NCBI GenBank assembly: GCA_944385705.1
Contig: CALWYF010000015.1
Location: 1 to 47,558, forward strand
Length of the DNA: 47,558 nucleotides
Direction of reading: 5' to 3'
Source of the DNA: an uncultured Oscillospiraceae bacterium
GTDB lineage: Bacteria > Bacillota > Clostridia > Oscillospirales > Oscillospiraceae
The notes beneath the pieces are model-generated. The model did no database searches and was not told where the DNA came from. It worked only from the letters and a program-made list of their open reading frames with translations. Shown here in pieces: positions 5,130-44,752 of the stretch. Position numbers and translations under genes: made by a program. The number at the start of each line of letters is the position of its first letter. The first letter of the stretch is position 1.

Positions 5130-6089
5130 ATGAAACTTACAGTCATCGACGGATACACCATGAACCCCGGAGACCTGAGCTGGGAACAGTATGAAAAGTT
5201 TGGTGAGCTTCGGGTCTTCGACCACTCCACCAGCGATGAGGACGAGGTCATCAGACGGATAGGAGATTCGGATATAGTAATTGCAAACAAGTCCAGGGTC
5301 ACCCGGCGGGTCATTGACGCCTGTCCCAACATCCGGTTCATTGCAGTCCAGGCCACAGGCTACGATCCCATAGACTACGTATACGCCCGGGAGAAGGGCA
5401 TTCCCGTGTCCAATGTTCCCGCCTACGGCACCGACTCCGTTGCCCAGTTTGCCATCGCTCTGCTGCTGGAGATATGCGGCCACGCCGGACATCATGATCA
5501 GGCAGTGCATCAGGGGAAATGGGCCCAGTGCGGCGACTGGTGCTTCTGGGACTACCCCATGATAGAGCTCTCCGGCAAGACCATGGGCATCATAGGCTTT
5601 GGACGTATAGGCCAGGCAGTTGGACGCATTGCCTCCGCCCTTGGCATGAAGGTTCTGGCCTACAACCGCAGCCGCAGCGAAAGCGGGGCAAAGATAGCCG
5701 AATATGTGGGACTGGACGAACTTTTGGCCAGAGCAGACGTTATCTCCCTGCACTGTCCGGCTTTCCCGGAAACCGTCGGCATGATCAACAAGGAAACCAT
5801 CGCTAAGATGAAAGACGGGGTCATCCTCATAAATAACAGCCGGGGGGCACTGGTGGTGGAGCAGGATCTGGCCGAGGCTCTCAACTCCGGCAAGATTGCC
5901 GCAGCAGCATTGGACGTGGTCAGCAGCGAGCCCATCAACGATGACAATCCCCTGCTCAGCGCCAAGAACTGTCTTATAACTCCCCACATAAGCTGGGCTC
6001 CCAAAGAGAGCCGCCAGCGCATCATGGATTGCACCGAGGAGAATATCCGCTGCTTCCTGGCCGGAAAGCCCCAAAATGTGGTGAATTAA
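5130..6089 (+). CDS. D-2-hydroxyacid dehydrogenase (glycerate dehydrogenase-like)
   Basis: 319 residues, full length for the family. The N-terminal substrate half includes ANKSRVTRRVIDACPNIRFI. The Rossmann NAD-binding core has GIIGFGRIGQAVG near residue 155. The catalytic triad appears as Arg in INNSRGALV, Glu in VSSEPIND and His in TPHISWAPKE. The whole resembles HprA/hydroxypyruvate reductase enzymes, which interconvert 2-oxoacids and D-2-hydroxyacids in the cytoplasm. Family members differ in substrate, so glycerate, lactate or a branched hydroxyacid are all possible. It sits behind the hexokinase gene, which does not settle the substrate. Confidence 0.88.
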   Translation: MKLTVIDGYTMNPGDLSWEQYEKFGELRVFDHSTSDEDEVIRRIGDSDIVIANKSRVTRRVIDACPNIRFIAVQATGYDPIDYVYAREKGIPVSNVPAYGTDSVAQFAIALLLEICGHAGHHDQAVHQGKWAQCGDWCFWDYPMIELSGKTMGIIGFGRIGQAVGRIASALGMKVLAYNRSRSESGAKIAEYVGLDELLARADVISLHCPAFPETVGMINKETIAKMKDGVILINNSRGALVVEQDLAEALNSGKIAAAALDVVSSEPINDDNPLLSAKNCLITPHISWAPKESRQRIMDCTEENIRCFLAGKPQNVVN

Positions 6090-6101
6090 GAACTTTATGA
6101 C

Positions 6102-6130
6102 TTGCGCCGCTGCGGCTCATATGGTATAAT
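6102..6130 (+). promoter_or_regulatory. Sigma-A promoter of the small export protein gene
   Basis: TTGCGC (6102-6107), exactly 17 bp, then a perfect TATAAT (6125-6130), 66 bp before the start of the next gene. GCCGCTGCGGC in the spacer is a small inverted repeat that could be an operator, but this is weak. Confidence 0.6.
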
Positions 6131-6195
6131 CAGCGGCGTTGCCGGGGATTGTGCGGCGACGTAACACAAGAAAAAAATGAATTTGGAGAAAATAC

Positions 6196-6675
6196 ATGTT
6201 TGAATGGTTGACGGCCACCGATGCCGGCAGATTCCTTACCACCTTCTTTATATCCATGCTCCCTATAGTTGAACTGAGAGCCGGACTGCCTTACGGCATA
6301 GCTCTTGGTCTGGACTATCCCCTGGCCCTTACTGCCGCACTGGTGGGCAATATGATTCCCGTTCCCTTTATCGTGGTGTACATCCGGCGTGTCTTTGTCT
6401 GGCTCAGAGCTCACTTTAAAAAGATGGACAGCTTCATTACCAAGCTGGAGAAAAAGGCCCACCTGAAGGGAGAAACGGTAAGGAAGTATGGCCCCTTGGG
6501 TCTGCTGATTTTCGTGGCCATCCCCCTTCCGGGCACAGGAGCCTGGACCGGTGCTCTCATTGCCGCATTACTGGATATGCGTCTGAAAAGCGCAGTGCCC
6601 AGCATCTTTCTGGGTGTATGTATTGCAGCAACTATAATGACCCTCCTCACCTTCGGCGTCATCCACATAGTCTGA
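6196..6675 (+). CDS. Small multidrug export family membrane protein (COG2426)
   Basis: 159 residues. The conserved FISMLPIVELRAGLPYGIALGLD block and AIPLPGTGAWTGALIAALLDM block are the signature of the Sm_multidrug_ex family (PF06695). Hydrophobic segments occur at roughly 10-30, 40-65, 95-120 and 130-155, so it is an integral membrane protein. Despite the family name, drug export is poorly supported and the physiological substrate is unknown. It has its own promoter and a strong terminator, so it is monocistronic. TTGGAGA precedes the ATG. Confidence 0.85.
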   Translation: MFEWLTATDAGRFLTTFFISMLPIVELRAGLPYGIALGLDYPLALTAALVGNMIPVPFIVVYIRRVFVWLRAHFKKMDSFITKLEKKAHLKGETVRKYGPLGLLIFVAIPLPGTGAWTGALIAALLDMRLKSAVPSIFLGVCIAATIMTLLTFGVIHIV

Positions 6676-6708
6676 GACAGTATACGGCGGCTATAAAGCC
6701 ATCTGAAC

Positions 6709-6752
6709 CACGGCCCGGAAAGCAAAAGAGCTTTCCGGGCCGTGTATTTTTT
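6709..6752 (+). terminator. Strong rho-independent terminator
   Basis: A perfect 14-bp stem (CACGGCCCGGAAAG paired with CTTTCCGGGCCGTG) with loop CAAAAGAG is followed by TATTTTTTC. It insulates the upstream export gene from the bil operon promoter. Confidence 0.93.
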
Positions 6753-6803
6753 CAGCTCTCTGACTCAATATTTAAATTCAGTTCACAATTTTTTTGCGTA
6801 TTT

Positions 6804-6820
6804 ACTTGACTTAGTCAAGT
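6804..6820 (+). promoter_or_regulatory. Palindromic operator 1 of bilQRS
   Basis: ACTTGACTTAGTCAAGT is a 7-3-7 perfect inverted repeat. It covers the -35 hexamer TTGACT. A near-identical copy lies 27 bp downstream centre to centre, which is between two and three helical turns. A dimeric MarR protein would be expected to bind each palindrome. Confidence 0.85.
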
Positions 6821-6833
6821 AAAAGAGTATACT
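6806..6833 (+). promoter_or_regulatory. Promoter of bilQRS embedded in operators
   Basis: TTGACT (6806-6811), a 16-bp spacer and TATACT (6828-6833). The -35 element lies inside operator 1 and the -10 element overlaps the left edge of operator 2, so occupancy of either palindrome would block RNA polymerase. This arrangement predicts autorepression by the MarR protein encoded immediately downstream. Confidence 0.75.
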
Positions 6834-6847
6834 TGACATAGTCAAGT
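6831..6847 (+). promoter_or_regulatory. Palindromic operator 2 of bilQRS
   Basis: ACTTGACATAGTCAAGT is identical to operator 1 except at one central base. It overlaps the end of the -10 element and the expected transcription start, and lies just upstream of the bilQ Shine-Dalgarno AAAGGAG. Confidence 0.85.
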
Positions 6848-6863
6848 TAAAGGAGCTGAGGAT

Positions 6864-7274
6864 ATGTTTCAAACCCTTGCCTATTTTGCAACGGTTTTTT
6901 ATCGGGATTTTACGGCCTATACCACGGGCCGGCTGCACAAGCTGGGGCTGAGCTTTGGCCTGCTTTTTCCCCTGATATATGTGGGCAAACATCCGGGCTG
7001 TACCCAGGGGGAGCTTACGTCGGCCCTGGGGCTGGACTGGGGATATTCCCAGCGCAGTATTGCCAGGCTTGTGGAGGATGGATTCCTGACGCGGGAGAAG
7101 TCCGGCCGGGCCTATCGCCTGAACCTAAGTGAAAAGGGGCAGGAAGCGTTTAGCCTGAGCCATCAGGTATTTTATGACTGGGATCAGGAGCGCTTGTCAG
7201 CCCTGGAACCGGAGGAGAGAGAGCGGCTGATTGCCCTGCTTGCAAAAGTCAAGAGGAAAGATAAGGAACGGTAA
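6864..7274 (+). CDS. bilQ: MarR-family regulator (BilQ-like)
   Basis: 136 residues with a MarR winged helix. KHPGCTQGELTSALGLDWGYSQRSIARLVEDGFLTREKSGRAYRLNLSEKGQEAF contains the recognition helix, wing and the typical T-x-x-G-x-x-x-F end in adjacent blocks. It heads a three-gene operon; its TAA stop overlaps the ATG of the next gene in TAATG, so the two are translationally coupled. Two 17-bp palindromes overlapping the promoter are its probable targets. In the described bilirubin-reduction locus the MarR gene preceding bilR is called bilQ; the assignment rests mainly on bilR next door. Whether bilirubin or another ligand relieves repression is an inference. Confidence 0.85.
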   Translation: MFQTLAYFATVFYRDFTAYTTGRLHKLGLSFGLLFPLIYVGKHPGCTQGELTSALGLDWGYSQRSIARLVEDGFLTREKSGRAYRLNLSEKGQEAFSLSHQVFYDWDQERLSALEPEERERLIALLAKVKRKDKER

Positions 7275-8386
7275 TGTATAAAGTTCTTGAAAGCCCGTTG
7301 AATTACGGGGGCATCACCCTGAAAAACAGAATTATTTTTGCACCCACGACCTTAGGATTGCCCAGAGAAGAGCAGCTGCAGCGGCTGAGAGAAATTGCTG
7401 CCGGTGGCTGCGCAATGATAATTATAGGTGACGTGCCGGTACTGCCTCATGGCTTTGGCCCATCCCTGTACAATAAGAGAGGCTTTGCCTGGTACAGAGA
7501 TCTGGCTGATACCGCACACCGGGAGGGCTGCCTGATATGCGCCCAGCTCCACCAGTCCGATTCAAACTTCAAAGGGATGATGAAGTATATTCCAGGAGTA
7601 CTGGCCGGGCAAATTTCCCAGGATGAGCTGAGAGAGATTTTAAACCGGAATGTGGGGCCATATATAAGCGGCCTGCCGGAGAAGAAGGTGAATGAAATTA
7701 CTTCTGCTTTTGGCACTGCTGCCGAGCTGGCTGTGCAAGCCGGCTTCGACATGGTGCAGGTCCATGGGGACCGGATGTGCGGCAGCTTTAGCTCATCCGT
7801 ATTTAACAGCCGCAGTGACCGCTATGGTGGGAGCACGGAGAAGCGGGCCCGTTTTGCAGTGGAAGCTGTGTCATCAATCAGAAGCAAGCTGCCAGGTCTG
7901 CCCATAGATTATAAGCTGGCAGTGCGATTAGAACATCCACACTACGGAAATGCCGGGGTATTGGAAGAAGAACTGGGCGTGTTTTTGCCATTGCTGGAGC
8001 AGGCAGGAGTGACCAGCTTCCACGTGACTCTGGCCGATCATGGAAAGCTCAGCGACACAATACCGCCCCGAAACCATCCATACTTTGGGGAGGAAGGTTG
8101 TTTTTTGAGGTTCTGCGACACTGTGCGTGGCCTCACGAAGCTGCCGGTATGCGCTGTAGGCGGGCTGACGGACCCGGCCTTCGTTGAAGAACAGCTGGAA
8201 GCGGGGCGCATGGACTGCATCGCCATGAGCCGCCAGCTCATAGCCGATGCTGACTGGCCCAGAAAAGTGATGGAAGGACGGGAGCGGGAGATAAATCGCT
8301 GCATTCGCTGCAATAAAGAATGCCTTGGGGGCATGATGTCTCACCGGGGTGTTCATTGTATTTATGAAAGGAAAGATAAAAAATGA
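7274..8386 (+). CDS. bilR: Bilirubin reductase (Old Yellow Enzyme family)
   Basis: 370 residues with an FMN-binding TIM barrel of the OYE/2-enoate reductase type: start LESPLNYGGITLKNRIIFAPT, then FNSRSDRYGGSTEKR and VGGLTDPAFVEEQL. The diagnostic feature is the motif HGDR at residues 164-167, with Asp166 and Arg167 at the positions I recall as defining BilR; ordinary OYE proteins usually differ here. A four-cysteine cluster C343-x2-C346-x3-C350-x11-C362 fits a 4Fe-4S centre. The C-terminal FAD/NAD half of dienoyl-CoA reductases is absent, so this is the short form, which probably takes electrons from a partner such as the flavodoxin gene it overlaps. The family reduces bilirubin to urobilinogen in the anaerobic gut. 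Confidence 0.87.
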   Translation: MYKVLESPLNYGGITLKNRIIFAPTTLGLPREEQLQRLREIAAGGCAMIIIGDVPVLPHGFGPSLYNKRGFAWYRDLADTAHREGCLICAQLHQSDSNFKGMMKYIPGVLAGQISQDELREILNRNVGPYISGLPEKKVNEITSAFGTAAELAVQAGFDMVQVHGDRMCGSFSSSVFNSRSDRYGGSTEKRARFAVEAVSSIRSKLPGLPIDYKLAVRLEHPHYGNAGVLEEELGVFLPLLEQAGVTSFHVTLADHGKLSDTIPPRNHPYFGEEGCFLRFCDTVRGLTKLPVCAVGGLTDPAFVEEQLEAGRMDCIAMSRQLIADADWPRKVMEGREREINRCIRCNKECLGGMMSHRGVHCIYERKDKK

Positions 8387-8871
8387 GTTATTCAATCGTT
8401 TACAGCAGCCGTACAGGCAATACTGCCAATCTGGCCCAGACCATCAGGGAAGCGCTTCCGGCGGAGGACTGTATCTATTTCGGCGAGCCGGACCCAAAGG
8501 CTCTGGAGGCTGAGACAATATACCTGGGCTTTTGGACCGACAAAGGCAGCTGCGACGAGGCAAGCGCCGAGTTCTTGAAGAGCCTGACCGGACAGAGGCT
8601 GTTCCTCTTCGGCACTGCCGGTTTTGGCGGCGCTCCGGCCTATTTCGAACAGATACTGGACAGGGTTAAATCCAAGATGGGAAGCGGCGTAACTGTCGTC
8701 GGCAGCTACATGTGCCAGGGGAGAATGCCTATGAGTGTGAGAGAGCGGTACATGCAGATGGAGGAGAGTCCCCGGCGTACTGCCATGTTGAAAAACTTTG
8801 ACGCTGCCCTGAATCATCCTGACGCAGAGGATCTTACGAGATTGAAAGCGGCTTTGCTGCCCAATGGATAA
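8383..8871 (+). CDS. bilS: Flavodoxin-like protein (BilS)
   Basis: 162 residues with a flavodoxin fold. The FMN phosphate loop is SSRTGNTANLAQ at residues 8-19; isoalloxazine-contact loops are GFWTDKGSCDE (about 50) and GTAGFGGAPAYFEQ (about 76). The ATG overlaps the bilR stop in ATGA, indicating coupled translation and a fixed stoichiometry. In known bil loci a flavodoxin-like gene, bilS, accompanies bilR. The likely role is electron delivery to BilR, which lacks its own NAD(P)H-oxidising domain; that role is inferred from architecture. It is followed by a terminator shared with the convergent operon. Confidence 0.85.
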   Translation: MSYSIVYSSRTGNTANLAQTIREALPAEDCIYFGEPDPKALEAETIYLGFWTDKGSCDEASAEFLKSLTGQRLFLFGTAGFGGAPAYFEQILDRVKSKMGSGVTVVGSYMCQGRMPMSVRERYMQMEESPRRTAMLKNFDAALNHPDAEDLTRLKAALLPNG

Positions 8872-8908
8872 AGCCGGCAGCAAATCCCTTTTATACTTTT
8901 AAGAAAAA

Positions 8909-8947
8909 ATCCCGCAGACGGAAAGTTACGTCTGCGGGATAGATTTT
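8909..8947. terminator. Bidirectional terminator between bilS and the GGGtGRT gene
   Basis: A perfect 12-bp stem (ATCCCGCAGACG paired with CGTCTGCGGGAT) with loop GAAAGTTA. On the plus strand it is followed by AGATTTT; on the minus strand the same hairpin is followed by a T-rich run, so it serves the two convergent operons and works better for the minus strand. Confidence 0.88.
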
Positions 8948-8979
8948 ATGTAGCGACTTTTTGACTAAGCTCAGCAGGC

Positions 8980-9978
8980 TTACTTCATGGACTCGGCAGT
9001 AGCCACGGCCACGGCCACGGTAGCGCCAACCATGGGGTTGTTGCCCATGCCCAGGAAGCCCATCATCTCCACGTGAGCGGGGACGGAGGAGGAACCTGCA
9101 AACTGAGCGTCGGAGTGCATACGGCCCATGGTATCGGTCATGCCGTAGGAGGCAGGGCCGGCAGCCATGTTGTCGGGGTGGAGGGTACGGCCGGTGCCGC
9201 CGCCGGAAGCCACGGAGAAGTACTTCTTACCCTGCTCGATGCACTCTTTCTTGTAGGTGCCTGCAACGGGGTGCTGGAAGCGGGTGGGGTTGGTGGAGTT
9301 GCCGGTGATGGAGACATCCACGCCCTCAAAGTGCATGATAGCCACGCCCTCACGGACATCGTCGGCGCCGTAGCAGCGGACATCGGCACGCTCAGTCTCG
9401 GAGTAGCGGATCTCACGGACGATCTTCAGCTCGCTGGTGTAGTAATCAAACTGGGTCTGGACATAGGTAAAGCCGTTGATACGGGAGATGATCTGAGCGG
9501 CGTCCTTGCCAAGGCCGTTGAGGATGACGCGCAGGGGCTCCTTGCGGGCCTTGTTTGCGTTCTTCACGATGCCGATAGCGCCCTCGGCGGCGGCGAAGGA
9601 CTCGTGGCCGGCCAGGAAGGCAAAGCACTTGGTATCGTCGCTGAGGAGCATTGCGCCCAGGTTGCCGTGACCCAGACCGACCTTGCGGTCCTCAGCCACG
9701 GAGCCGTCCAGGCAGAAGCTCTGGAGGCCCACACCGATGAGCTTGGCAGCCTCGGCAGCAGTCTTCACGCCGGACTTGATGGCGATGGCAGCGCCCACGC
9801 AGTAGGCCCAGCAGGCATTTTCAAAGCAGATGGGCTGAATGCTCTTAACTATTTCATAGGGGTCAAAGCCCTTGGCCTTGCAGATCTCTCTGCACTCTTC
9901 CACAGAACCGATGCCGTACTGGGAGAGGACGCCGTTGATCTTGTTTATTCTTCTGTCGTAGTTCTCAAACAGAGCCAT
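8980..9978 (-). CDS. GGGtGRT protein (function unknown)
   Basis: 332 residues from the ATG at 9978, which has AGGAGG upstream; the longer reading frame to 10038 overlaps the previous gene and is unlikely. The namesake motif appears as SVASGGGTGRTLHPDN near residue 250. Other conserved-looking blocks are LGHGNLGAMLLSDDTKCFAFLAGHESF and GNSTNPTRFQHPVAGTYKK, in adjacent stretches. Glycine-rich loops suggest nucleotide or cofactor binding, but no known enzyme fold is recognised. The family is found in anaerobes, almost always beside a NifU-like gene as here. No signal peptide or membrane segment is seen. Biochemical role is not known. Confidence 0.9.
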   Translation of the reverse strand: MALFENYDRRINKINGVLSQYGIGSVEECREICKAKGFDPYEIVKSIQPICFENACWAYCVGAAIAIKSGVKTAAEAAKLIGVGLQSFCLDGSVAEDRKVGLGHGNLGAMLLSDDTKCFAFLAGHESFAAAEGAIGIVKNANKARKEPLRVILNGLGKDAAQIISRINGFTYVQTQFDYYTSELKIVREIRYSETERADVRCYGADDVREGVAIMHFEGVDVSITGNSTNPTRFQHPVAGTYKKECIEQGKKYFSVASGGGTGRTLHPDNMAAGPASYGMTDTMGRMHSDAQFAGSSSVPAHVEMMGFLGMGNNPMVGATVAVAVATAESMK

Positions 9979-9995
9979 TATCTTGTCCTCCTTTA

Positions 9996-10688
9996 TTATT
10001 CCTGACGGGGGTCTATGTACTTGACAGCGGCATCCCACTGACCGTAGTGACCGGTAGCCTTCTTCATGGCCTCGTTAGCGTCTTCGCCCTTCTTGATGAA
10101 GTCCATCATCTTGCCCAGGCTTACGAACTCATAGCCGATGATCTCGTCGTCCTTGTTAAGGGCGATCTTGGTGACATAGCCCTCGGTGAGCTCCAGGTAA
10201 CGGGGGCCCTTCTCCTTGGTGGCAAACATGGTGCCAACCTGAGAGCGCAGGCCCTTGCCCAGGTCTTCCAGGGAAGCGCCTATGGCCAGACCGTCTTCGG
10301 AGAAAGCGGACTGGGAGCGGCCGTAAACAATCTGCAGGAACAGCTCACGCATTGCGGTGTTGATGGCGTCGCACACCAGGTCGGTGTTGAGAGCCTCAAG
10401 GATAGTCTTGCCGATGAGGATCTCGGAGGCCATAGCTGCGGAGTGGGTCATGCCGGAGCAGCCCAGAGTCTCCACCAGAGCCTCTTCAATGATGCCGTTT
10501 TTGATGTTCAGGGTCAGCTTGCAGGCGCCCTGCTGGGGAGCGCACCAGCCCACGCCGTGGGTGAAGCCGGAGATATCGGAGATTTCCTTGGCCTGGACCC
10601 ACTTGCCCTCTTCGGGGATGGGGGCGGGGCCATGGTATGCGCCCTTAGCTACAGGGCACATATGCTTTACTTCGGTAGTGTAGATCAT
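9996..10688 (-). CDS. NifU-like Fe-S scaffold family protein
   Basis: 230 residues. The N-terminal half resembles the IscU/NifU scaffold: GWCAPQQGACKLTLNI, VETLGCSGMTHSAAMA and TDLVCDAINTAM supply three cysteines spaced like cluster ligands. The C-terminal extension (about 140-230) is not part of classical NifU. The family is annotated as an Fe-S cluster assembly scaffold and is tied to the GGGtGRT gene, which starts 17 bp downstream. General Isc/Suf partners are not in the window, so general cluster assembly is doubtful; a dedicated partnership with the GGGtGRT protein is more likely. It starts 52 bp after gpmI with no terminator between, so it may be read from the glycolysis operon. Confidence 0.85.
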   Translation of the reverse strand: MIYTTEVKHMCPVAKGAYHGPAPIPEEGKWVQAKEISDISGFTHGVGWCAPQQGACKLTLNIKNGIIEEALVETLGCSGMTHSAAMASEILIGKTILEALNTDLVCDAINTAMRELFLQIVYGRSQSAFSEDGLAIGASLEDLGKGLRSQVGTMFATKEKGPRYLELTEGYVTKIALNKDDEIIGYEFVSLGKMMDFIKKGEDANEAMKKATGHYGQWDAAVKYIDPRQE

Positions 10689-17429: not shown

Positions 17430-19436
17430 ATGAAAGGAAACAAACTGGTAATTACCTTCATACTGGCATTGATAGTATGTTTGGTACTTATCCCCACCTG
17501 TGCCTTTGCCGAAGGCGCAGACCCCCTTGGCAACGAAGCGTCCGTTGCGGATGCCGGCAATCCCCCCGCACAGCCCCCTGTAGAGACTCTTGCCGAGACT
17601 CCCGCTGAGACTCCCGCTGAGACTCCTGCCGAGACTCCCGCTGAGACTCCTGCCGAGACTCCCGCTGAGACTCCTGCCGAGACTCCCGCTGAGACTCCCG
17701 CTGAGACTCCCGCCGAGACTCCCGCTGAGCCCCCTGTAGAGACTCCTGACGAGACTCCCGCTGAGCCCCCTGTAGAGACTCCTGACGAGACTCCCGCTGA
17801 GCCTGACGCCGGTTACACTGTTGAGTTCACCGTTGGTGACAAGCAGTATGTTCTGGCCGGAGATACCAGCGTAGACCTCTCTGAGATCCTTGGTTCTCTG
17901 GGCATCAGCGGAGAGATAAGCGGAGCCAGCAGCAGCGCCGACTCTCTCTTCTCCGTGGCTCAGGATGAAAACGGGAAGTGGACCGTCTCCGCCAACGAGT
18001 GCTTCAGCAGCACCCAGAGCATGACCGTCGTTGTGGACGGCCAGGAGTACCAGATTGTTGTCACCGACGACGGCGTGGTGGCCAGCTGGGTGGATGCAAA
18101 TGGTGTGACTCATGATTCTACCAGCTTGAAGGACGCCATAGATAACGCCGCAGACGGAACCACAGTCGTGCTGAAGGACAACTACACCGGCAGCATTACC
18201 GTTGATAACGGCAAGACCGTCACCATTGACCTGGGTGGAAAGACCTTAAATGCAGGCAGCAGCAGCGCTTCTGTGTTCTCTGCTTATAGCGGAAACATAA
18301 TGATAACAAACGGTACAATTAATGGACGCCTTAATGCCTATAACTCTTCTACGGTAACCCTGGCTTCCGATGTAACCCTTAATGGTATGCTTGTCGTCTG
18401 GGGCGAAGGTAGTGGAGATACTGCAAAGACTCCTGTTGCAAATGTTTATGGTACTATAAACAATACAGGTGCTCAGGCGATTTCCACAAATGGTACAGAC
18501 CGTTCCGGCGCAGTCATAAATATTTATGACGGTGCAAAAGTCACTTCTGATGAAATTACCATCTATCTTCCCAGCGGCAACCTCAATGTGTATGGCGGCA
18601 CCATCAAGGGCGATACCGGCATCTACGTAAAGGGCGGCTCTCTCAACATCACCGGCGGTGAGATAATAGCCAACGGCGAGCAGGCCAATCCCGACACCAG
18701 TTTCAACAATGGTGCATACACCACCGGCACTGCCATTACAATAGAAAATGCGTACAATGGCACCTCCAGTGGTTACCCTCAAATTACCGGCATTAACATC
18801 AGCGGCGGCACCATGACCAGTGAAAATGCTGATTCCATCCTGTACCTGGACCGTGATACCGCTCAGGGCTCTCACAACAGCTTCGTCAGCGGCGGTATCT
18901 TCAGCAGCGTTCCCGAAGAGGAACTGCTCTCCGGCGGCAACACCGTCATCAGCGCAGGTGGCGCCTATGCCGTAGGCTCTGAGGGCAACATGGCCTCCGT
19001 CAATGGCCTTATGGCCAACGCCGGAGATAATGTCATCACCGTCTACAGCGCACCCAACGGCATCACCGCTCCCGAGGGCAGCACTGTTGTCAACAAGACC
19101 GGCAGCGCCATCACTGTCAACGGTGTCGTTCTCCAGCCCGACCAGTCCATTACCATCCCTGTAAGCCCCGTAGCAGTTCGTGGTGACTACTACATCATAG
19201 AGGGTAAAGACCAGACCTGGACCAAGGGCTCCAATGAAGAACTGAGCTTCAAGCTCAATTCCGGCAAACTTATTAAAGTCCTTATTGACGGTGAGGAAGT
19301 GGAGTTTGAAATTACCGAAGACGGCGTTGTAACCATCGCCCCCGAGGTTCTGGAAGCTCTTGAGCCCGGCGTTCACACCATCACCTTCGTGTACGTGGAC
19401 GGCGGCATTTCCACCAACATCGTCATAGAGGCCTGA
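17430..19436 (+). CDS. Secreted repeat-containing beta-helix surface protein
   Basis: 668 residues. A Sec signal peptide spans residues 1-27 (hydrophobic LVITFILALIVCLVLIP, cleavage after AFA). Residues about 52-128 are a low-complexity ETPA repeat, probably an extended stalk. A domain of about 100 residues follows. From about 230 comes a parallel beta-helix-like part rich in VTLASDV, GTINGRL, NVYGGTIKGD and ISGGTM units. The C-terminus (about 585-668, IEGKDQTWTKGSNEELSF and GVHTITFVYVDGG) is an Ig-like domain common in clostridial surface proteins. No LPxTG motif, SLH domain or membrane anchor is visible, so attachment to the wall is unclear. Adhesion or glycan binding is plausible but unproven. 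Confidence 0.85.
   Translation: MKGNKLVITFILALIVCLVLIPTCAFAEGADPLGNEASVADAGNPPAQPPVETLAETPAETPAETPAETPAETPAETPAETPAETPAETPAETPAETPAEPPVETPDETPAEPPVETPDETPAEPDAGYTVEFTVGDKQYVLAGDTSVDLSEILGSLGISGEISGASSSADSLFSVAQDENGKWTVSANECFSSTQSMTVVVDGQEYQIVVTDDGVVASWVDANGVTHDSTSLKDAIDNAADGTTVVLKDNYTGSITVDNGKTVTIDLGGKTLNAGSSSASVFSAYSGNIMITNGTINGRLNAYNSSTVTLASDVTLNGMLVVWGEGSGDTAKTPVANVYGTINNTGAQAISTNGTDRSGAVINIYDGAKVTSDEITIYLPSGNLNVYGGTIKGDTGIYVKGGSLNITGGEIIANGEQANPDTSFNNGAYTTGTAITIENAYNGTSSGYPQITGINISGGTMTSENADSILYLDRDTAQGSHNSFVSGGIFSSVPEEELLSGGNTVISAGGAYAVGSEGNMASVNGLMANAGDNVITVYSAPNGITAPEGSTVVNKTGSAITVNGVVLQPDQSITIPVSPVAVRGDYYIIEGKDQTWTKGSNEELSFKLNSGKLIKVLIDGEEVEFEITEDGVVTIAPEVLEALEPGVHTITFVYVDGGISTNIVIEA
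17583..17808 (+). repeat. 12-bp tandem repeat encoding ETPA units
   Basis: Around a dozen copies of GAGACTCC(C/T)GC(T/C), encoding Glu-Thr-Pro-Ala, followed by a higher-order unit with GAGCCCCCTGTAGAGACTCC repeated twice. The unit is a multiple of three, so copy number can change by slippage without breaking the frame and would alter stalk length. Confidence 0.92.
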
Positions 19437-21367: not shown

Positions 21368-22498
21368 TCAGCTGCTCAGGCCCTCCCTGGCGGCAGCCTT
21401 TATCTTGCCGTATTCCTCTTCCACTATATTTTCCATTTCCTCCCATCTGCTCTCCATGTCCTCCGCCAGGGTGAACTGGGTGCGGCAGCGGTCCAGATTA
21501 TGCTTTTCCCTGTCGATGGCAAAATACTTGTCCCCCATGAGATAGTCGGTGAGAAAACGGATGCCGCATTCCATGGTCATGGCATAGGCTCCCTGAGCCA
21601 GAGCCTTCACTTCCATATTGGTGAGGCTGGGGCAGCTCTCCAGAAAGCCTCTGGTAAAGGCCCGGAAGTAATCCAGATTCAGTCTCACCTTGCTCAGCTC
21701 CACCTCGTCCTCGGCGGCGGTGGAGGCTCCGAAGCGTATAGCGTCCCCGAAGTCGTGGGCGGAGATGCCGGGCATGACCGTGTCAAGGTCTATTACGCAA
21801 AGGGCTTGGCGGGTGTCTTTATTCAAAAGGACATTGTTAATCTTGGTGTCGTTGTGGGTGGCCCGCACCGGCAGCTCCCCCTCCCGCCTCAGCTTCTGAA
21901 GGCGGCAGGCACGCTCCTCCCTCTTCAGGGCAAAGTCCACCTCTCTCTCCACTTCCTGGAGTCTTCCGCGTTCGTCGGCCTCTATGGCCTCCCTGAATTT
22001 TTTGTAGCGGTCCTCCGTGTCGTGGAAGTTTTCTATGGTCTCCACCAGCTGCTCCGCCGGGAAATCCCTCAGGGCATACTGGAAGCCTCCGAAGCCTCTG
22101 GCGCTCTGGTAGAAGTCCTCCGCCGTCTCCGCCCGCTGAAGGCAGATGCTGTCCGGTACGAAGCGGTAGAGCCGCCAGGCTCCGCCCTGGCCGTCGTCAT
22201 AGTAATTGTGTCCGTCCAAGGTGTCTATATAGCTTATCATGGCCATTTTTCCCTTATGGTGTTCCCGGAGGAAAGCGCTGATGGCGCTCATGTTCTGCAT
22301 TATAGCCTCCACATTGGGAAAAACATAGCGGTTTATCCACTGGAGTATGTAGCGGCTGTCCTCGTCGGTGGTGACCAGATAGGTCTCGTTTATGTGTCCG
22401 CTCTTGATCTGGCTGACGGAGGCCACATCCCCGTCTATGGGGAACTTGCAGGCTATATCTCCCTGAGCGGCAAAGCTGCCGCAGCTATCAGTGTGCAT
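21368..22498 (-). CDS. NahK-like N-acetylhexosamine 1-kinase (APH family)
   Basis: 376 residues of the aminoglycoside-phosphotransferase-like kinase fold. N-terminal IKSGHINETYLVTT is the ATP loop. The catalytic loop is ATHNDTKINNVLLN (HxDxxxxN) near residue 225 and the metal-binding block is CVIDLDTVMPGISAHDFGD. This pattern strongly resembles N-acetylhexosamine 1-kinase from bifidobacterial host-glycan pathways, although related homoserine and choline kinases share parts of it. It would phosphorylate a free amino sugar at C1. The gene lies 15 bp behind an MFS carrier, suggesting uptake and phosphorylation of the same sugar. nagB occurs elsewhere in the window. Confidence 0.75.
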   Translation of the reverse strand: MHTDSCGSFAAQGDIACKFPIDGDVASVSQIKSGHINETYLVTTDEDSRYILQWINRYVFPNVEAIMQNMSAISAFLREHHKGKMAMISYIDTLDGHNYYDDGQGGAWRLYRFVPDSICLQRAETAEDFYQSARGFGGFQYALRDFPAEQLVETIENFHDTEDRYKKFREAIEADERGRLQEVEREVDFALKREERACRLQKLRREGELPVRATHNDTKINNVLLNKDTRQALCVIDLDTVMPGISAHDFGDAIRFGASTAAEDEVELSKVRLNLDYFRAFTRGFLESCPSLTNMEVKALAQGAYAMTMECGIRFLTDYLMGDKYFAIDREKHNLDRCRTQFTLAEDMESRWEEMENIVEEEYGKIKAAAREGLSS

Positions 22499-42174: not shown

Positions 42175-43008
42175 TTATGTAAATTTTCTCGCATAGCCGC
42201 AGCGGCGGCAAAGAGGCTCTGTCGCCCGGCGCTGGGAGAAGCCTGTATATATATTTCGGGCTCTTTCAGTTGACATAATCTCAGGCAATTTCTGATGGAA
42301 AAGGTTTCCCAGAGGGATATCCCCCTCATGATCCAGGCAGCAGGGCACCACCGTCCCGTCACAGAGGACGCCCACCTGGTCCCTTAGCCCGTAGCAGAAG
42401 CAGTCTGCTCCCCGGTCCTGCGCCTCCAGGTCCGGCCAGTCAAAGCGTTCCCCCGGCTCCAGGTATACCCGGTCCGCCAGACGGAGACTACCCCGACTAT
42501 CTGCCCAGGGCTTGGGAAAGTATGGGAGCAGCAGTTCTTCTATTTTGGGGTTCAGGCTGTCCAGACCCTTCCGATTCCACAGCCGCAGAACGCAGAGCTT
42601 TCCCGCCTCCCCTGCCGCCTTTGCAAAGGCGGCACAGGCGGAGACATATTCCTCCAGTTCTCCGTTGGGATTTGCCTCAAAGGACTGGAGGGAGATGTTC
42701 ACCTTGTGCACTGCAGGGTTAGCCAGCAGCAGCTCTCCCCGCTTGGGCAGCAGGGTGCCGTTAGTGGTGATTATCAGCCTGAAGCCCAGCTCGCAGGCCC
42801 GGCTCAGTATCTCCCCCAGCTCCGGGTGAAGCAGTGGCTCACCCATCAGATGGAGGTAGAGATAGTCAGTATAGGGCCGCAGGCGCCCCGCCAGAAAGCC
42901 GAAGTCCTCCGGGCTCATGAAACGTCTCTCCCTTTTCGTGCCGGGGCAAAAGGAGCAGGCCAGATTACAGACGTTGGTTATCTCCAGGTAGGCTTTCTTA
43001 AACTTCAT
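42175..43008 (-). CDS. Radical SAM/SPASM-domain protein
   Basis: 277 residues from the ATG at 43008, which has GGAGAGG upstream; the longer frame overlaps the GH2 gene end. The radical SAM motif is EITNVCNLACSFCPGTKRE near residues 11-18 (CxxxCxxC). The C-terminal SPASM-like region has CFCYGLRDQVGVLCDGTVVP with CCLDHEGDIPLGNLF and a final CRRCGY, enough cysteines for one auxiliary cluster. Such proteins modify peptides or activate enzymes; the short C-terminal part is like the anaerobic-sulfatase-maturase-related group. No candidate peptide substrate is seen nearby. It follows the GH2 gene by 50 bp. Confidence 0.85.
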   Translation of the reverse strand: MKFKKAYLEITNVCNLACSFCPGTKRERRFMSPEDFGFLAGRLRPYTDYLYLHLMGEPLLHPELGEILSRACELGFRLIITTNGTLLPKRGELLLANPAVHKVNISLQSFEANPNGELEEYVSACAAFAKAAGEAGKLCVLRLWNRKGLDSLNPKIEELLLPYFPKPWADSRGSLRLADRVYLEPGERFDWPDLEAQDRGADCFCYGLRDQVGVLCDGTVVPCCLDHEGDIPLGNLFHQKLPEIMSTERARNIYTGFSQRRATEPLCRRCGYARKFT

Positions 43009-43025
43009 ATCCTCTCCAAAATTTT

Positions 43026-43048
43026 CGGCGGGACTTTTGGTCCCGCCG
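43026..43048 (-). other. Hairpin between the GH2 and radical SAM genes
   Basis: CGGCGGGAC pairs with GTCCCGCCG around a 5-nt loop. On the minus strand it is followed by GAAAATTTTGG, a weak T-run leading straight into the radical SAM Shine-Dalgarno. It may be a leaky terminator that lowers expression of the downstream gene. Confidence 0.55.
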
Positions 43049-43057
43049 ATATTTTTA

Positions 43058-44752
43058 TCAGTTTCCCACATATATGGCTTTACGCATGATTTCGGGAGAA
43101 ATTTTCTCCACCTTGCGGTCATAAGTCAGAACTCCGTTGAGCTCATCCTCCACGTCGCTGAGTTGGGTGTACACGGCGGCAGCCAGTCCCTCCATTTTGG
43201 CGGGGCCTATCTGCTTCTGGTACAGTTCCTCAACGGCTATCTCCAGCTGGGCCGGAGTCTCAAAGCTCTTATAGCCGAAGTTCTTGTTATTGAAGCAGTG
43301 GCCGGAGACATGGTGGTTATAGCCTCCAAACTCGCTGAGGAGCACGGCCCGGCCCTTCTTGTCCGCCTTGAAGTAGTAGGGACGGAAGTAGACATGGCGG
43401 CTCACCACCTTGCCCACCCCCTGGTCATGCCAGCCGGAGGCATGGTCAATAGTACGGCTGGGGTCGATGGAATGGACAAAATCATACATCTTGGCAGCGT
43501 CAAACTGGCCCCAGCCCTCATTGAACACCACCCACATGGCTATGCAGGGGCAGTTTATCAAATGGTTCACCATCGCCCCAAGTTCTGATTTGAACTGGGC
43601 CCGGCCCTTACTGTCTCCCCGGCCAAAAAGGACGTGGAGAGAATCGGGCAGGTGGATGTTGGTGATAAGGGGCAGCGTGACGATAAGGGGGTTATACTTC
43701 CCGCCGCCGCAGGGCATGTCCTGCCACACCAGCATACCGTAGCGGTCACAGTGGTAATACCAGCGCAGAGGCTCCACCTTGATATGCTTTCTCAGCATAT
43801 TGAAGCCCATGGCCTTGGCGGTGCTGATGTCATATATCATGGCCTCGTCGGTGGGGGCGGTGTACAATCCGTCGGGCCAGTATCCCTGGTCCAGCACCCC
43901 GTTATGGAAGTAGGGCTTATTGTTGAGAAATAGCCGGGGCACACCCTTTTCGTCCTTCTCCACGGAAAACTTGCGCATGGCAAAATAGCTCTGCACCAGG
44001 TCTTCCCCGCAGCTGACTGTAAAGCCGTAGAGCTTTGGATTTTCCGGGCACCAGGCCTCAAAGCCCGGCACCGGTATCACCGCCGGGAGCAGATAGCTCT
44101 CTCCGTTAAAATGGGCATAGGCCAGCTCCTCGCCCACAATTTCCGCAGAAATCTCCACACAGGCCCCGTCGAAATCCGGGATAATCAGCAGATCCTTGAC
44201 GTAGGACTCCGGCACGGCCTCCAGCCACACACTCTGCCATATGCCGCTCTGTGGGGTGTACCAGATGCCGCCCCGGCGGCTGCGCTGTTTGCCCCGGGTC
44301 ATGCCGCTCTTCTCCGTGTCGTCGGTGACCCGCACCACGATATCTGCCATGCCGTTCTCTATATAATCCGTTATATCCAGCTCGAAGGGCAGATAGCCCC
44401 CCTGGTGGCTGCCGGCCTGCCGGTCGTTCACCCACACAGTGGCGCACTGGTCCACCGCTCCGAAATGGAGCAGCAGATTCATGCCGCTGAACTGGCCTGG
44501 GATAACGAACTGCCGGTGATACCACAGGTATTGCCCACTCTTCAGGCTCCGCCCCACACCGGAGAGCTCCGCCTCCGGGGAGAATGGCACGATTATCGTC
44601 CCCTCGTAGCTTGCAGGCTGGCGGGAGCTCTCCGTTATGGCATAGTCCCAGGGGCCGTTCATGCTCATCCAGTTGGCTCGGGCCATCTGGGGCCGGGGAT
44701 ATTCCGGCAGAGGATTATTGATATCTACCTTATCGGTCCAGGGTGTCTTCAT
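43058..44752 (-). CDS. Glycoside hydrolase family 2 protein (beta-galactosidase-like)
   Basis: 564 residues. The N-terminal sugar-binding jelly roll (about 20-185) contains LLLHFGAVDQCATVWVNDRQ and GGYLPFELDITDYI. A shortened Ig-like middle domain covers about 186-265. The catalytic barrel has IRK-like MLRKHIKVEPLRWYYHCDR, acid/base Glu412 in VVFNEGWGQFD and nucleophile Glu474 in LLSEFGGYNHH. No signal peptide, so cytoplasmic. It is short for the family; LacZ is almost twice as long. Substrate could be a beta-galactoside, glucuronide or mannoside. Its position behind ybaB, where recR usually stands, is unusual. Confidence 0.88.
   Translation of the reverse strand: MKTPWTDKVDINNPLPEYPRPQMARANWMSMNGPWDYAITESSRQPASYEGTIIVPFSPEAELSGVGRSLKSGQYLWYHRQFVIPGQFSGMNLLLHFGAVDQCATVWVNDRQAGSHQGGYLPFELDITDYIENGMADIVVRVTDDTEKSGMTRGKQRSRRGGIWYTPQSGIWQSVWLEAVPESYVKDLLIIPDFDGACVEISAEIVGEELAYAHFNGESYLLPAVIPVPGFEAWCPENPKLYGFTVSCGEDLVQSYFAMRKFSVEKDEKGVPRLFLNNKPYFHNGVLDQGYWPDGLYTAPTDEAMIYDISTAKAMGFNMLRKHIKVEPLRWYYHCDRYGMLVWQDMPCGGGKYNPLIVTLPLITNIHLPDSLHVLFGRGDSKGRAQFKSELGAMVNHLINCPCIAMWVVFNEGWGQFDAAKMYDFVHSIDPSRTIDHASGWHDQGVGKVVSRHVYFRPYYFKADKKGRAVLLSEFGGYNHHVSGHCFNNKNFGYKSFETPAQLEIAVEELYQKQIGPAKMEGLAAAVYTQLSDVEDELNGVLTYDRKVEKISPEIMRKAIYVGN

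Follow-up and report, generated by a model that had tools for sequence, protein, structure and literature searches.

A bilQRS operon of the short-BilR type with putative twin operators in an uncultured Oscillospiraceae bacterium

How much bile pigment is excreted, and how much returns to the blood, depends on its reduction by microbes. In C. difficile and C. symbiosum, the bilQRS genes encode a MarR-family regulator, a short reductase of the Old Yellow Enzyme (OYE) family with an HGDR motif (BilR) and a flavodoxin-like protein (BilS) that is probably involved in electron transfer; bilRS activity has been published for two species (PMC10769871). Ruminococcus gnavus and Faecalibacillus intestinalis have a long BilR, which shares the HGDR-bearing domain and methine reduction, and has its own flavodoxin-like and NADP(H) domains (PMC13252198, a 2026 preprint); at the loci opened here it often adjoins bilV. 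Here we describe a three-gene operon in a 47,558-nucleotide stretch of DNA (the window) from an uncultured Oscillospiraceae bacterium. The window lies on contig 15 (CALWYF010000015.1) of a 2.26-Mb genome that is 96.4% complete. A genome of the same genus (G293) carries a contig of Candidatus Limivicinus faecipullorum (our locus L079, within L006), which places the window genome in that genus.

Three co-directional genes fill positions 6804-8871 together with their upstream sites (Table 1). All three products exceed the cut-offs of curated NCBIfam models: BilQ, whose gene lies upstream of bilR, scores 158 bits (cut-off 125), BilR 539 bits (425) and BilS 219 bits (155). By sequence, the set is bilQRS of the short-BilR type, an additional member, in a little-studied gut bacterium, of a system already published. 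It matches the C. difficile and C. symbiosum operons, as these are described in print, in its regulator, short HGDR-bearing OYE and flavodoxin-like BilS, and differs from the long-BilR systems in having neither the two additional domains nor an adjoining bilV. An earlier reading of the letters alone (the sequence-only reading) had named these genes bilQRS, with overlapping junctions and a shared terminator. The scores bear out the names, and the overlaps lie where it placed them, as TAATG between bilQ and bilR and ATGA between bilR and bilS.

Table 1. Features of the bilQRS locus, in positions of the window
Feature	Position	Strand	Basis
Intrinsic terminator upstream, 15-pair stem then TATTTTTT	6709..6744	+	would insulate the operon from the preceding gene
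Operator O1, ACTTGACTTAGTCAAGT, proposed BilQ site	6804..6820	.	first of a pair in 33/43 bilQ loci
-35 box TTGACT, inside O1	6806..6811	+	promoter match
-10 box TATACT, running into O2	6828..6833	+	16-bp spacer from -35
Operator O2, ACTTGACATAGTCAAGT	6831..6847	.	second palindrome
bilQ, MarR-family regulator, 136 aa	6864..7274	+	NF045593
bilR, short-form bilirubin reductase, 370 aa	7274..8386	+	NF045592, short-BilR clade, model fold
HGDR codons (H164-R167)	7763..7774	+	motif read; role of D166/R167 from PMC10769871
C343-x2-C-x3-C-x11-C362, likely [4Fe-4S] ligands	8300..8359	+	aligned with 1PS9 cysteines
bilS, flavodoxin-superfamily protein, Flavodoxin_3 (FldH/HmuF) type, 162 aa	8383..8871	+	NF045594, PF12641, 8G64
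BilS helical cap, residues 114-145, with A142/H145	8722..8817	+	model helices 117-124 and 130-142; FldH alignment
Terminator hairpin between convergent bilS and GGGtGRT genes	8909..8940	.	12-bp stem

The HGDR motif of BilR includes D166 and R167, as the sequence-only reading had it, and the numbering matches that of the tested enzyme; changing D166/R167 of long BilR led to significantly lower activity (PMC10769871). The predicted iron-sulfur cysteines, also noted in that reading, begin at residue 343 and have the same spacing as those of 1PS9. This dienoyl-CoA reductase is the best match of BilR in the PDB both by sequence and by the fold of an AlphaFold 2 model (predicted local distance difference test score, pLDDT, 92). 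A domain scan of BilR found PF00724 alone, a single OYE domain, with neither flavodoxin nor NADP(H) domains. Because BilR has 370 residues and 1PS9 has 671, the flavin adenine dinucleotide (FAD)/NADH half of dienoyl-CoA reductases (FAD/NADPH in 1PS9) is absent, as had been claimed; a further difference from 1PS9 is the HGDR sequence in the active-site loop of BilR.

We compared BilR with 49 loci fetched from named genomes. HGDR is present in 43 of these (read in frame), the others being three with LGDR, one with a broken frame (L049) and two unrelated OYEs. The exact cysteine spacing occurs in 39 of the 43 HGDR loci, and two of the four exceptions (L020 and L045) are cut short in the frame that was read. 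At 81%, the closest BilR is that of L006, whose record bears the name faecipullorum. In a tree of 57 rows (36 BilR, 7 BilV and 14 other OYEs, none of them a biochemically tested BilR), with supports read after rooting on BilV, the window BilR falls in a 28-row short-BilR clade (100/100) inside a 36-row clade of all BilR (100/99), separate from BilV and the other OYEs. Placement outside the BilR clade would have spoken against the sequence-only reading. Apart from the window itself and one HGDH protein, initial class- and phylum-wide searches for long BilR and BilR yielded only ordinary OYEs.

The NCBIfam BilR cut-off alone is not diagnostic, because a protein with LGDR in a different operon (L043, 487 bits) and one with HGDH (L080, 478 bits) also pass it. 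The model admits altered motifs and other gene contexts, and surveys by the model alone may over-count. L080 (G576:C119) is a 370-residue BilR-like protein at the base of the short clade in an initial tree. The LGDR proteins of L040, L043 and L047 (bilR-like gene at position 6001) nest inside short BilR and lack bilQ, bilS and operators. L043 neighbours a major facilitator superfamily transporter, an isochorismatase-fold hydrolase and a BFD [2Fe-2S] protein, and L047 has a similar hydrolase. The LGDR branch possibly acts on a new substrate. That the window BilR has itself drifted to another substrate, as this branch seems to have done, would fit the nesting and the passing score of L043 in another gene context. 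We regard it as very improbable, since HGDR, bilQ, bilS and the twin operators are all retained in the window, and each of them is missing from the LGDR loci.

The sequence-only reading had also given the operon its own operator and promoter, and this is supported. Two copies of ACTTGACnnnGTCAAGT, starting at 6804 and 6831, form 17-bp palindromes astride the predicted promoter upstream of bilQ. We surveyed 43 bilQ loci (42 of the 49 fetched, plus the window; related species, thus not independent samples) for sites matching at least 11 of 14 positions within 200 bp upstream. Two sites were found in 33 loci, one in eight and none in two; in the remainder of these loci, 8 such sites occur across 539,384 positions. 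The pairs are 28 bp apart in 29 of the 33, 27 bp in three, including the window, and 29 bp in one. The fetched loci thus differ slightly from the window, with operators mostly 28 rather than 27 bp apart and a promoter spacer of mostly 17 rather than 16 bp. Twin operators are kept down to 38% BilQ identity, in a locus that itself has no adjacent bilS (L032). The 14 long-BilR loci contain 6 scattered weak sites in 171,514 bases, and no operator sites were found at the three LGDR loci.

A bare promoter consensus is weak evidence, as positions 6650-9000 hold four promoter-like sites where 1.7 are expected. Judged by sequence comparison, the strength of this promoter as evidence is its conservation: TATACT or TAAACT stands behind a TTGAC box in 40 of the 43 bilQ loci. 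The simplest reading of the arrangement is autorepression by BilQ, with dimers over both promoter boxes. A BilQ dimer would sit on each of O1 and O2, covering -35 and -10, and would repress transcription until it is released by a bile pigment (bilirubin or biliverdin) or by a product. The conserved twin operator points to BilQ as a candidate sensor of bile pigment.

The exact core CTTGACnnnGTCAAG occurs twice in the 2.26-Mb genome, both times upstream of bilQ. We also considered a BilQ regulon beyond the operon. Seven further matches with one mismatch were at chance level, six of them inside open reading frames and the seventh at window position 21773; a backwards control pattern matched as often as the core with up to one mismatch (9 and 9 hits), so we claim no wider regulon. 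At two Faecalibacterium-labelled loci (L008:5915-5959 and L050:5915-5959), twin operators 28 bp apart stand directly before an HGDR bilR, and bilQ was not detectable at either locus. Here bilQ may act from elsewhere or may have been lost recently.

The twin operators appear in the accessible text of neither PMC10769871, where 'operator' occurs once, for lac, nor PMC13252198, whose main text, as far as accessible, does not mention bilS, bilQ, flavodoxin, MarR, operators or regulation. In the literature since 2023 on bilQRS or control of bilirubin genes by MarR proteins, titles and abstract openings gave no other account of an operator.

Sequence and modelled fold both indicate that BilS is not a typical flavodoxin and that its closest solved relative is FldH of Fusobacterium nucleatum (8G64). 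A profile of 20 BilS proteins matched the 8G64 chain with an expect value (E) of 6.7e-16, the next PDB chain following at 6.9e-6; for the window BilS alone, the values are 4.4e-7 and 0.32. Foldseek aligned the BilS model (pLDDT 93) to 8G64 with E 3.6e-9 and template modelling (TM) scores of 0.80 by query length and 0.77 by target length. Among the other 49 matches listed of 1251, TM scores are at most 0.56 (query) and 0.62 (target). PF12641 covers nearly the full length of both proteins (169.5 bits in BilS; 186.3 bits over residues 1-159 of FldH).

FldH and HmuF are capped flavoproteins in which heme binds over flavin mononucleotide (FMN). They reduce anaerobilin by hydride transfer without stabilising the semiquinone, and the residues Ala147, His150, Pro151 and Asp155 are conserved in them (PMC10404700). 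BilS shares with them the FMN phosphate loop (S9-T14), a Gly-Lys/Arg hinge (G113, then K or R at 114), a helical cap that the model places between strand 5 and the last helix, and the A-x2-HP-x3-D signature at FldH spacing (A142, H145, P146 and D150), which is invariant in 20/20 BilS proteins. The heme-iron ligand is absent: His134 of FldH aligns with R132 of BilS, in a column with Arg in 15, Lys in one and His in one of the 20. This ligand is missing from some HmuF proteins too (PMC10404700). Two cysteines, C57 and C111, are invariant in the 20 BilS proteins, absent from FldH and near FMN-contacting positions of FldH. The partners also differ, a radical-SAM enzyme for HmuF and an OYE for BilS. 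The cap signature marks the family rather than bilin use, because the His-Pro pair recurs in a less closely related protein (L184).

Because BilS keeps the cap signature and lacks the heme-iron ligand, it may itself bind and reduce bilins, and its cap would be fit for an iron-free bilin. We tentatively propose, at somewhat below an even chance, that BilS is a second pigment-handling enzyme, whose cap holds bilirubin or biliverdin over FMN and which either reduces a bridge by hydride transfer or passes the pigment on to BilR. If true, short bilRS would comprise two reductases and have a common origin with anaerobic heme breakdown, and loss of the iron-ligating His would be the step from heme to iron-free bilins. 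A connection between FldH and BilS was not found in the literature on FldH, anaerobilin and flavodoxin, judged by titles, and the accessible text of a review (PMC12670364) does not join them.

Another role, to which we give close to even odds, is that of an ordinary flavodoxin whose sole task is to pass single electrons to the [4Fe-4S] cluster of BilR, as PMC10769871 suggests in general terms. The intact FMN phosphate loop and the missing FAD/NADH part of BilR agree with this role, and the FMN of FldH-type proteins can be reduced in two single-electron steps (PMC10404700); it accounts less well for the invariant cap signature and for a nearest relative that transfers hydride without stabilising a semiquinone. 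The proposal of the sequence-only reading that the flavodoxin donates electrons thus stands as a possibility, tempered by the kinship with a tetrapyrrole-binding, hydride-transferring protein. We favour a BilS that substitutes for the flavodoxin-like and NADP(H) domains of long BilR and that, as a capped FldH/HmuF-type flavoprotein, probably both carries reducing power and holds pigment.

The resemblance to FldH and HmuF, which reduce anaerobilin, also raises the idea that the operon handles a linear tetrapyrrole that the cell makes from heme, rather than host bile pigment. This is disfavoured and highly unlikely. No radical-SAM anaerobilin synthase exceeds its cut-off in the genome, where the best match to TIGR04107 scores 198 bits against 400 and is by eye a HemW-like gene adjoining an htpG-like gene. 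Nor did a scan of the four neighbouring genes (5130-6675 and 8983-10688) turn up one for heme uptake.

The sequence-only reading had predicted that the organism turns bilirubin into urobilinogen. The bilQRS identity behind that prediction holds, and the full product does not follow from it. BilR is reported to reduce methine bridges only, while BilV, with an AHAH motif, reduces vinyl groups; BilR alone yields divinyl-urobilinogen, and vinyl reduction needs BilV (PMC13252198). Long BilR exceeds its cut-off in 29 of the 148 genomes from the order to which the Solobacterium genome L037 belongs, and among 14 long-BilR loci opened, of 30 listed, 11 have an adjacent AHAH protein (BilV). We built a profile (A1) from ten of these 11. 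It scores 1220 bits for an AHAH protein outside the profile (G777) and 1276 for one inside. BilV was not found in the window genome, where the best profile match reaches 361 bits, below the 390-406 bits that long BilR proteins themselves score. Besides bilR, the genome has four OYE genes, namely three with the loops HAAH, HGGH and HAVH and a fragment. The latter (L005, G000:C41:11422-11769) matches the first third of PF00724 only and is a decayed gene or an assembly break.

Because no BilV was found, the main product should be divinyl-urobilinogen, unless gut partners supply mesobilirubin or vinyl reduction. In 17 short-BilR genomes (16 with HGDR and one with LGDR), the best BilV-profile matches are 489 and 469 bits. 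They are two OYEs with AHAY in place of AHAH (L160 in G741 and L161 in G740, respectively), possible stand-ins for BilV. Near BilV relatives therefore exist in some short-BilR genomes.

The bilRS pair of C. difficile converted biliverdin into divinyl-urobilinogen, and in avian guts 71-89% of bilR is bilR-short (PMC13252198). Short BilR dominates in birds, which excrete biliverdin, and the closest relative of the window BilR has the record name faecipullorum. The natural substrate could thus be biliverdin rather than bilirubin. We consider this less likely than not, as the same enzyme type reduces bilirubin too.

Taken as a whole, we put the probability of a self-regulated bilQRS operon of the short-BilR type, with the product and BilS role proposed here from sequence, at about 0.75. 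Several observations weigh against this reading. Clade identity leans on NCBIfam models and HGDR, as no tested BilR is among the tree rows, and the other OYEs in the tree are long-branched and do not lie on one side of any single branch. The operator pair is missing from ten of the 43 bilQ loci. bilS is absent beside an HGDR bilR and bilQ in L016, L018, L029, L032, L041 and L051, so that bilS is not always needed in cis. A bilV gene could have been missed in a genome that is 96.4% complete. Finally, urobilin (m/z 591) was reported with bilRS alone (PMC10769871, 2024), and on the bilRS product the 2024 and 2026 papers conflict. The locus makes three points testable: how the genes are switched, what BilS does in the light of its link to FldH, and whether bilRS without bilV stops at divinyl-urobilinogen.

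Within the genus, bilR looks patchy. It exceeds the cut-off in two of 61 genomes, the window's included, many of the 61 being incomplete. The GGGtGRT gene that follows the operon in the window occurs in 20 of the 61, and bil genes are found at two of these 20 loci, the window's own and L165. In L165 (G306:C12, same genus, 85% complete), an intact bilS alone lies between the window's flanking genes, with bilQ and bilR missing, and no bilR was found elsewhere in that 85%-complete genome. A clean empty site was not seen among the 20 loci, with flanks up to 1.5 kb. The guanine-cytosine content of bilQRS (53-55%) is too close to that of the window (56%) to inform on transfer.

We considered a mobile origin and, from the one phage-labelled record opened, rejected a phage-borne one. 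The matches were one plasmid (33% identity) and three phage-labelled records (60-62%), and in the one record opened, MT835802.1, the genes look chromosomal. This record (L113, labelled Bacteriophage sp.) contains bilQRS with twin operators among modABC-, rplI- and dnaB-like genes, identified by eye, and is probably bacterial DNA in a phage collection.

The operon is preceded by a small multidrug-export gene (6196-6675). The terminator that the sequence-only reading placed after bilS is present as a hairpin (-24.6 kcal/mol, z -6.5). Its better T run lies on the opposite strand, so the convergent gene at 8980-9978 probably uses it as well. Positions 8980-10688 encode a GGGtGRT protein (PF14057) and a 230-residue partner that adjoins it in 18 of the 20 loci of the genus; at the thresholds used, neither Pfam nor NCBIfam gives a match for the partner. 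The same holds for a 668-residue protein with a signal-like start, judged by eye (17430-19436). At 42175-44752, a Radical-SAM/SPASM protein adjoins a family-2 glycosidase. The glycosidase falls under all listed NCBIfam cut-offs, the best hint being beta-glucuronidase (92 of 544 bits); a glucuronidase, if present, would matter for freeing bilirubin.

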